Assembly (NCBI RefSeq): GCF_001597725.1
Contig: NZ_LUTR01000003.1
Span: 186,001-250,000 of the forward strand
Direction of reading: 5' to 3'
Length of the DNA: 64,000 bases
Source of the DNA: Neptuniibacter marinus
Lineage (GTDB): Bacteria; Pseudomonadota; Gammaproteobacteria; Pseudomonadales; Balneatricaceae
The notes beneath the pieces were generated by a model that was not told the origin of the DNA, did no database searches, and was given only the letters and a program-made list of their open reading frames with translations. The translations under genes and the position numbers were made by a program. Shown piece by piece: positions 13,613-45,248 of this stretch (the first letter of the stretch is position 1; each line of letters begins with the position of its first letter).

Positions 13613-14155
13613 TTAAAGGCCTTCGTAGGCTAGAAGCGTATGTACTGGGACGCCGGCATCTTGGATTTTACTGGAACCTTGAAGGTCGGGTAGGTCAATA
13701 AGTGCAGCGGCTTCTGATACTGATGCTCCCAATTTTTTGATAATGCTGCAGGCCGCAAGTATTGTTCCGCCTGTAGCGATTAAATCGTCAAAAACTAAAA
13801 CTTTGTCTCCAGAAGTAACTGCATCAACCTGCATTTCAACTGTCGCTGTGCCATATTCCAGCTTATATTCTTGTTCGATTGTTTGGCCTGGAAGCTTCCC
13901 TTTTTTACGGACGAGAACTAAGGGAATATTTAGATGGTAGGAGATAATAGAGCCGATCAAAAAGCCTCTGGCATCAATGCAGGCGATATGAGTAATATCA
14001 CTATCAACATAACGCTGAATAAAAGCGTCAGAGATCATGCGTAATGCTTTTGGATCTTTAAACAGGGGGGTTATGTCACGGAACTGTACGCCAGGTTCAG
14101 GCCAGTCAGGGATGGTTCGAATAACTGACTTCACATAACATTCGTCGTATGACAT
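13613..14155 (-). CDS. apt: adenine phosphoribosyltransferase
   Basis: Apt salvages adenine, joining it to PRPP to make AMP. The 180-residue protein has the PRPP-binding loop VLVFDDLIATGGT and the N-terminal segment IPDWPEPGVQFRDITPLF typical of Apt. The ribosome site AAGGAG lies eight bases before the ATG. An Anr-like box at 14180-14193 lies 25-38 bp upstream of its start and could affect apt as well as the divergent small-RNA candidate. Confidence 0.97.
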   Translation of the reverse strand: MSYDECYVKSVIRTIPDWPEPGVQFRDITPLFKDPKALRMISDAFIQRYVDSDITHIACIDARGFLIGSIISYHLNIPLVLVRKKGKLPGQTIEQEYKLEYGTATVEMQVDAVTSGDKVLVFDDLIATGGTILAACSIIKKLGASVSEAAALIDLPDLQGSSKIQDAGVPVHTLLAYEGL

Positions 14156-14179: not shown

Positions 14180-14221
14180 TTGATTTGGCTCAATGCATTT
14201 TAGGGGAGGTAAAGGTCTAAT
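14180..14221 (+). promoter_or_regulatory. candidate Anr/Fnr class II promoter for a small RNA
   Basis: TTGATTTGGCTCAA (14180-14193) matches the Fnr/Anr consensus TTGAT-N4-ATCAA at 9 of 10 positions. TCTAAT (14216-14221), 5 of 6 to TATAAT, has its centre exactly 32 bp from the centre of the box, the geometry of an Fnr site at -41.5. The predicted start of transcription is about 14228 on the plus strand. Confidence 0.5.
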
Positions 14222-14227
14222 GAACCC

Positions 14228-14308
14228 GTTGGGTTACACATTGAGATGGCTACTTTTTGTGCGACTGACGAGCACCGGTAGTCAATATGCCGGTGCTCTT
14301 TTGTTTTA
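14228..14308 (+). ncRNA. candidate Anr-dependent small RNA
   Basis: Predicted plus-strand transcript of about 80 nt between the minus-strand genes apt and anr. It starts 7 nt after a -10 hexamer placed correctly behind an Anr-like box, and ends at a strong intrinsic terminator. GACT at 14263-14266 could also pair with AGTC in the terminator loop (14280-14283). The first 40 nt look mostly unpaired, with a U-run at 14253-14257. No known family is recognised; E. coli FnrS has a different sequence. Promoter and terminator are seen in the sequence, but that a stable RNA is made is inference. Confidence 0.45.
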
Positions 14309-14310
14309 TA
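14270..14310 (+). terminator. strong intrinsic terminator, plus strand
   Basis: Perfect 9-bp stem GAGCACCGG (14270-14278) / CCGGTGCTC (14290-14298), 11-nt loop, followed by TTTTGTTTTATA on the plus strand. On the minus strand no T-run follows, so it is oriented against both neighbouring genes and fits the small-RNA candidate. Confidence 0.8.
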
Positions 14311-14321
14311 TATTATATGAC

Positions 14322-15116
14322 TCAGCAGTGACCATTTTTACCACATTGCGCACTTACTGGTTCAGCGGTATCGCTTTCTATAACCTCTCCAGATAATCTG
14401 TAGAGTTGTTCTATATCTTCTATATGAACTTCTTTGCCTTCAACGCGCAGTAAATTGGCTTTCTGGAAACGTGTGAAAATACGGCTGACAGTTTCGACGG
14501 CTAAGCCTAAGTAATTACCAATCTCATTACGCGACATGGACAGGCGGAAGCTAGTTTCAGAATAGCCGCGAGCTTTAAAGCGTTGCGAAATTTTTACCAA
14601 AAATGTTGCTACACGCTCTTCTGCATTTTTCTTTGATAAAAGAAGCATCATTTGTTGTTCTTCGCGAATCTCTTTGCTCATAGTGCGTAAGAGTTGGCGG
14701 CGTAGTTCCGGTAGTTGCCCCGACAGATCATCGAGGCGTTCAAATGGAATTTCGCAAACGGTTGTTGTCTCTAGTACTTTTGCCGAGACAGGGTATTCGT
14801 TGCTATCAAATCCGCTCATGCCAACCAATTCGCCTGGAAAATAGAACCCAGTGATCTGTTCCTCACCTTCATTTGTGATGGTGTAGGTTTTGACGGTTCC
14901 TGCTCGAATCGCATACACGTCAGTGAACTCAGAACCTTGGTTAAATAGGTGATCACCTTTTTTTAATGGTCGACTTTTATCGATAATTCTATCTAACCGT
15001 TCCATCTCTGTCATATTAAGCGAAACGGGGAGACATAATGAGCTAAGACTACAAGTGTTACAGCTAACCTGCTGCAAACTACGCAGCTTCCCTTCGTTTG
15101 TCTTGTTATCACTCAT
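14322..15116 (-). CDS. anr: Anr/Fnr oxygen-responsive transcription regulator
   Basis: CRP/FNR-family regulator of 264 residues that binds a [4Fe-4S] cluster and activates anaerobic or microaerobic genes when oxygen is low. The four ligand cysteines are present: C19, C22, C28 and C121 (CX2CX5C near the N-terminus plus one central Cys). A cyclic-nucleotide-like barrel is followed by a helix-turn-helix whose recognition helix ETVSRIF has the Glu-Ser-Arg residues that read TTGAT. It sits beside hemN and the cco genes, as in Pseudomonas. Likely targets in this window are ccoN, the universal stress gene and the small-RNA candidate. Confidence 0.95.
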
Positions 15117-15188
15117 AATACATTCCTGTTGTCGTTATAATCGAGTGGCTACATTTTGATTATGTAATATTTCTGTAAATACGGGAAG

Positions 15189-25431: not shown

Positions 25432-25802
25432 GTCAGACTCTCATCAACAAGCTAGATTATGGAAATTTGAGTTTCACTGCTAATTATCTGGGAATAAGCC
25501 CGTATTATCAATGTATTTAGGAGATTAACTGGGGCATATTGTCGCAGGAGTTGAATGTCGACCTAGGTCTAGTATCTTTACTTCTTAGGTCTTGGTTTTG
25601 TTTTTAACTTATTGAATTAAAAGGATTAAATTTCTTTGTGTGCCTGCTGCTTTTTCGAAGTTATGATCTATTTAGCGGCTTTTTTTGACCTATATCTATG
25701 TTTTTTGAAAAAGAACGGAGTTCTTTTCGGGGCTTTGTTTGACATAAATCAATTTCGATTTGTGCAATAATCAGTTGCTTTTATGTGGGTAGGGCACAGT
25801 TA
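25432..25802. other. divergent intergenic region of ccoN, 371 bp
   Basis: Holds the ccoN promoter region and that of the hydrolase gene on the plus strand. The Anr-like box at 25739-25752 is the only clear element. GACCTAGGTC (25560-25569) is a short palindrome of unknown meaning. No coding frame or RNA gene is recognised. Confidence 0.45.
25739..25752. promoter_or_regulatory. Anr/Fnr box upstream of ccoN
   Basis: TTGACATAAATCAA matches TTGAT-N4-ATCAA at 9 of 10 positions. cbb3 operons are classic Anr/Fnr targets, and an anr gene is nearby. I cannot place a convincing -10 at the -41.5 spacing; a GATATA at 25691-25696 would put the box near -61.5. Confidence 0.65.
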
Positions 25803-45234: not shown

Positions 45235-45248
45235 TTGATATTTATCAA
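45235..45248. promoter_or_regulatory. perfect Anr/Fnr box upstream of the Usp gene
   Basis: TTGATATTTATCAA matches TTGAT-N4-ATCAA at all ten positions. A minus-strand TACTAA lies where a -10 hexamer would be expected for a box near -41.5. Confidence 0.75.

Follow-up and report, generated by a model that had tools for sequence, protein, structure and literature searches.

The gap between apt and anr in Neptuniibacter marinus, analyzed here within a contiguous stretch of 64 kb that is referred to as the window, contains what looks, from its sequence features, like a previously undescribed small RNA gene (Table 1). Both neighbors, apt and the gene for an Fnr-subfamily regulator, are located on the minus strand, opposite to the RNA, and hemN is located upstream of anr. 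A preliminary description of this interval had claimed an Anr box with 9 of 10 matching bases, a TCTAAT hexamer at the spacing of class II promoters and a terminator with a perfect 9-bp stem followed by a T run, and all of these features were found in place. The stem pairs positions 14270–14278 with positions 14290–14298, and the terminator scan counts 11 pairs. The start of a class II promoter is expected at a distance of 41.5 bp from the box centre, and the conserved part of the RNA begins at the very base that had been predicted as +1. As in Fnr/Anr-activated small RNA promoters, the Fnr-type box at −41.5 and the −10 hexamer have nothing but the RNA downstream.

Table 1. Features of the apt-anr region, given in window coordinates.
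Feature	Position	Strand	Remarks
apt	13613–14155	−	downstream of anr
Anr box TTGATTTGGCTCAA	14180–14193	+	9/10 match; centred at −41.5
−10 hexamer TCTAAT	14216–14221	+	box centre to hexamer centre, 32 bp
candidate small RNA, ~80 nt	14228–14307	+	predicted start 14228; conserved block begins there
RNA nt 1–27	14228–14254	+	complementary to predicted 5′ end of anr mRNA
hairpin 1, loop AUGGCUAC	14234–14266	+	little variation
intrinsic terminator	14270–14307	+	stem 14270–14298; T run TTTTGTTTT 14299–14307
anr, Fnr-subfamily regulator	14322–15116	−	neighbor of the RNA gene; presumed activator of the RNA
site in anr leader	15127–15153	−	complementary to the RNA; GUAGCC at 15147–15152
predicted anr promoter	15159–15187	−	TTCCCG (15182–15187), 17 nt, CATAAT (15159–15164); read from sequence

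Taken alone, boxes with 9/10 matches show only a mild enrichment in the window (10 vs. 4.4 expected), and terminators are not above chance in the surrounding 1.5-kb stretch (1 found vs. 1.5 expected). A box and a hexamer that are 32 bp apart are found together at a single place in the 64-kb window, and 60 mononucleotide shuffles of one strand contained no such pair. A perfect 10/10 Anr/Fnr box (TTGATATTTATCAA) was also observed at window positions 45235–45248, and a further one with 9/10 matches at positions 25739–25752.

We collected anr loci with the Anr protein and compared the best 80 of 566. All 80 loci contain apt, and in 30 of them the RNA element is present in the anr-apt gap, with the box, the hexamer and the terminator recurring together; the preliminary description had named a failure of these three to be conserved together in relatives as grounds for rejecting the gene. 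Among these best 80 of 566 loci, the element was identified in Neptuniibacter (7/7), Marinobacterium (16/19), Pontibacterium (2/2), Neptunomonas (3/3), Nitrincola (1/6) and one other member of the Oceanospirillaceae, and in none of the loci from Amphritea (0/8), Motiliproteus (0/2), Pokkaliibacter (0/1), Balneatrix (0/1), Pseudomonas (0/28) and two others (0/2). In the alignment of the 30 relatives and the window (31 sequences), the Anr box has 8–9 of 10 matches throughout, the centres of the box and the hexamer are separated by 32 bp in 29 sequences and by 33 bp in two, and the RNA opens with a conserved G, whose distance to the box centre is 41.5 bp in 23 rows and 42.5 bp in 8. The distance from the start of apt to the box ranges from 24 to 87 across the loci, and the box thus goes with the RNA rather than with apt. 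Nine further copies, which were found by the core motif and were outside the set used to build the model, all have a box with 8–9/10 matches and the 32-bp spacing. This joint conservation of box, hexamer, spacing, RNA core and terminator is, at the level of sequence comparison, the real proof of the gene, and the comparison likewise establishes the promoter geometry and the terminator. The claim that a small RNA with an Anr-type promoter is encoded next to its activator is supported by the 32-bp geometry, by the conserved start and by the pairing that is kept in the terminator, and we infer that the gene is transcribed and that its transcription depends on Anr.

Positions 1–40 of the RNA show almost no variation, in contrast to the remainder of the anr-apt gap. 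The RNA gene is antisense within this gap, which in some relatives is only 13–41 nt long, an arrangement that would suit an effect exclusively in cis, in which transcription against read-through from anr into apt impedes apt or leads to the destruction of the mRNA of both genes. A pure antisense RNA is complementary whatever its sequence and needs no fixed letters, yet those 40 positions hardly change, and we consider this explanation very improbable. In the terminator, the letters change freely and the pairing is kept. Under the named structure, 92.3% of the cells of the alignment are paired in the 31 sequences, as compared to 78.9% in shuffles, and 104 cells are changed on both sides, as compared to 37.9 in shuffles, a signal that is abolished if the partners are slid against each other. 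Nearly all of this compensatory support is due to the terminator; in hairpin 1 there is little variation, with one pair changed on both sides in three rows, and this hairpin is therefore weakly tested. The U-tailed intrinsic terminator, together with the presence of an hfq gene in the genome, is the combination expected of Hfq-dependent small RNAs and suggests that the RNA is Hfq-dependent. An ATG at RNA position 19, which is present in 27 of the 31 rows, could be taken as the start of a small-protein gene, but it is absent from the other four, the frame that it opens, where closed, has a length of 3 to 37 codons, and one-base length changes occur inside it. The element is for these reasons not read as a small-protein gene, the chance of which we regard as negligible.

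The preliminary description had also proposed a covariance search of the interval in relatives. With a model of the RNA alone, which matches the window at positions 14227–14305, a single copy was recovered from each of 43 of the 116 genomes of the family (E ≤ 2.6e-12). Of two further weak matches in the family, one (G316) looks like a true diverged copy and the other (G393) like chance. The diverged copy was found in two genomes of one genus (g121; G316 and G321), in which the box, the hexamer and GUUGGGUUAC are kept and the hairpin is different. A search of 293 genomes of the order with the interval as DNA gave matches in 7, including the genome of the window itself, and all 7 belong to the same family. 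A model search (R1) of 390 genomes of the order gave 11 strong matches, all in the family of the window; weak matches in two genomes (G097, G430) were read as 3′ ends of genes with terminators. No convincing copy outside the family was found among these 390 genomes, which are a sample searched with strict filters, so that a rare copy may exist elsewhere. A pattern of a box and GTTGGGTT was searched for in 369 genomes of the class and matched the genome of the window and 15 others, which are scattered and lack a −10 hexamer as judged by eye; the reversed control pattern matched 7 genomes, that of the window included. A scan of viral contigs for anr found nothing.

Likeness to FnrS and PhrS, another point of the preliminary description, holds for the type of regulation and not for the family. 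At the gathering score, Rfam 15 has no matches in the 64-kb window, and the best match over the interval is a weak one to ctRNA_pGA1 (E 0.21, 17.4 bits vs. a gathering score of 45). The FnrS family model (RF01796, listed as frnS) has no match in the genome of the window at E ≤ 0.001, while the E. coli control was matched. The RNA is not a member of any family tested. FnrS of E. coli is expressed under anaerobiosis through Fnr and represses > 30 mRNAs (PMC8139620), and the RNA in the window would resemble it in its predicted Fnr/Anr-type control. PhrS of P. aeruginosa is stimulated by Anr and activates pqsR (PMC9308961); with its 213 nt and a frame of 37 codons it is set apart from the RNA of ~80 nt without a conserved frame. 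Two other small RNAs of P. aeruginosa, PaiI and SicX, are also tied to low oxygen and Anr; PaiI has 126 nt and is dependent on NarXL, with a role of Anr that is probably indirect (PMC8139620). A literature search that covered few subscription journals found no small RNA work on Neptuniibacter and no Fnr- or anr-mRNA-targeting RNA, which does not imply absence from print.

The 5′ part of the RNA is complementary to the leader of anr. In the window, RNA positions 14228–14254 pair with positions 15153–15127 of the minus strand at a predicted −24.4 kcal/mol, and none of 1304 other 55-nt stretches from the surrounding 7.5 kb (both strands) pairs as well. The pairing spans positions −37 to −11 before the anr start codon, and GUAGCC starts at the predicted +1 of the predicted 36-nt leader. 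In most RNA-bearing loci, a GUAGCC-like stretch is located just after the anr −10 hexamer, of which the CATAAT of the window recurs in many anr leaders, and is followed by further matches to RNA nt 1–27; comparison thus shows the complementarity to be recurrent. Where present, the site starts at a median of +2 of the predicted anr mRNA. A site motif (TAGCC, AGCCAT, AGCCGC or GTAGC), defined post hoc after inspection, was identified in 32 of the 40 leaders with the RNA and in none of 61 leaders without it, two of which repeat another. With relatedness ignored, the median duplex energy is −24.5 in the 40 leaders with the RNA and −12.2 in 33 non-Pseudomonas leaders without it (p = 2e-12), and the gain on co-folding also differs (31 vs. 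21 leaders, p = 3e-8). Compared to resampled leaders, the co-folding z is below −2 in 18 of 31 cases (−3.1 in the window), and the rank of the pairing within the same locus gives p < 0.01 in 18 of 31 loci. By the post hoc motif, the complementarity of the activator leader is tied to the presence of the RNA, as in circuits of the OmrA/OmrB type, with only 4 independent contrasts: in an anr tree of 74 rows, 3–4 of the 4 supported contrasts agree and none opposes (p = 0.125), and the test cannot reach 0.05 with so few.

Two genomes that lack the RNA inside RNA-bearing genera (G351, G359) have anr leaders that also lack the site. The most diverged RNAs have a pairing advantage with their own leaders (−17.4 kcal/mol in G321, −13.1 in L033, −9.5 in G316, −6.9 in L005, −4.3 in L026 and −3.4 in L040). 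Matched changes were identified in L005, with UUUAG for UUGAG in the RNA and CUAGA for CUCGA in the leader, and in L026, with GGCUAU for GGCUAC in the RNA and AUAGCC in the leader; L034 has the same AUAGCC leader, yet its RNA is unchanged. The advantage is negative, favoring the own leader, in only 12 of 24 diverged RNAs. Of three leaders obtained after the idea arose, two contain GUAGCC and one (G347) has a mismatch. On the RNA side, L003 has a mismatch. The sites are weak in five RNA-bearing loci (L033, L028, L035, L027, L037), and in Marinobacterium litorale (L024) the RNA core and promoter are conserved and the leader has no site, with 1138 of 1169 stretches pairing as well or better, so that this species offers a natural setting in which to look for other targets. 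Because of this locus and the five weak leaders, the RNA probably has other work too.

The persistence of the RNA core in M. litorale, though its anr leader has no site, would also fit a different explanation, namely that the RNA is real and Anr-driven and acts on other mRNAs in the manner of FnrS, with the likeness to the anr leader a functionless relic of shared descent, for example if the promoter and leader of anr had been copied in inverted orientation. Some anr promoters have an untranscribed part, TGTTACATAAT, to which the complement of the RNA is also similar. Weighing against this explanation are the lack of the site in loci that lack the RNA, also inside a single genus, the best fit of some diverged RNAs to their own leaders and an unbiased search for further recurrent targets in which none held up, and we judge it to be unlikely. 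We favor an Anr-induced small RNA that feeds back on its own activator, most likely negatively, by pairing with the anr mRNA at its 5′ end, and assign to this reading, which rests on sequence data, a probability of roughly 0.7. A stricter form of it, for which we would put the odds slightly below even, is a dedicated feedback arm in which the RNA made under Anr silences the anr mRNA, the two genes are adjacent, the RNA and the leader evolve as a matched pair, perhaps after an inverted duplicate of the anr promoter-leader had given rise to the RNA, and loss of the RNA in a lineage is accompanied by loss of the site in the leader.

According to the favored reading, Anr would bind the box at −41.5 under low oxygen and activate the promoter of the RNA in the class II manner. 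The product would be an RNA of ~80 nt that has a single conserved hairpin and a terminator hairpin followed by a U tail. The 5′ tail of this RNA and the hairpin 1 loop would pair with the anr mRNA over roughly its first 30 nt, and this contact, if it takes place in cells, would feed back on the amount of Anr, the activator of the RNA itself. The region from −37 to −11 before a start codon overlaps the footprint of the initiating ribosome, for which reason a negative sign of the feedback is favored. In the predicted leaders, the site of the RNA is on average 40% unpaired, and the ribosome-binding site of anr is about half open (mean 0.55 in 37 predicted leaders) and not clearly hidden, which leaves little for the RNA to open and makes the blocking of ribosomes likelier than the opening of a closed site. 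These half-open sites also weigh against a positive loop, in which the same pairing protects the anr mRNA from decay at its 5′ end or aids its translation, and which could draw on the start of the site near the predicted +1 of that mRNA. In its favor is also ErsA of P. aeruginosa, which is named sigma-22-dependent in a cited title and which acts on the anr mRNA and raises Anr (PMC8575079). The pairing of ErsA is, however, predicted in the coding region instead (PMC8575079), and ErsA is not part of a loop driven by Anr; a positive loop seems rather improbable to us.

The closest circuit to the proposed anr loop, among the known systems considered here, is that of OmrA/OmrB in E. coli and Yersinia, which are activated by OmpR and repress the mRNA of OmpR itself in a negative feedback (PMC12692685). 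They differ in the regulator, the signal and the RNA, with the Rfam scan as the comparison of sequences, and the RNA gene in the window adjoins the gene of its putative activator.

Fnr-type regulators are controlled mainly by oxygen that acts on the protein. If the proposed loop is true, an RNA made by the regulator against its own message adds RNA-based control of the amount of the sensor in marine bacteria. A distance of 0.9 kb separates the RNA from its site, and both differ from species to species, which makes the loop testable with natural pairs; it would also give insight into the birth of a small RNA next to its target. Anr boxes with at least 8/10 matches in the 110 nt before anr were identified in 2 of 40 RNA-bearing leaders and in 2 of 61 others. 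Two Marinobacterium loci without the RNA (L049, L051) have an Fnr-type box (TTGACTTGGGTCAA, 8/10) before anr, as if direct autoregulation had replaced the RNA. Downstream of anr in one locus (L182, from G321), repeats with GTTGGGTTACGTGG...CACCCAACCTAC share the 5′ motif of the RNA and may be an interspersed repeat.

We also examined exact complements of RNA nt 1–10 in 16 chosen RNA-bearing genomes, in which 134 sites were found as compared to 119 for the reversed control, with no enrichment; 16 of the 134 sites are in the RNA gene itself, and clustering covered 110 entries, of which 4 were flagged as the gene itself. The recurrent gene among the clustered sites is enolase (eno). It was matched in 112 of the 116 genomes, of which 88 were examined, and one locus in which the motif was not found (G324) was dropped. 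As a target, eno was rejected as an effect of codon usage, with sites in 17 of 43 RNA-bearing genomes and 14 of 45 others (p = 0.50; p = 0.058 for the energies). The eno codons for DSRGNPTVE pair with the whole 5′ half of the RNA in one locus (L327, from G177; −42 kcal/mol), and eno of a genome from the same genus without the RNA (G359) also pairs at −37, which is probably due to codon usage. A site in the leader of infB was seen among the clustered sites in two Marinobacterium-type genomes only (L214 from G327, L274 from G329), in which the exact complement of RNA nt 1–10 is located directly before the ribosome-binding site of an apparent infB gene.
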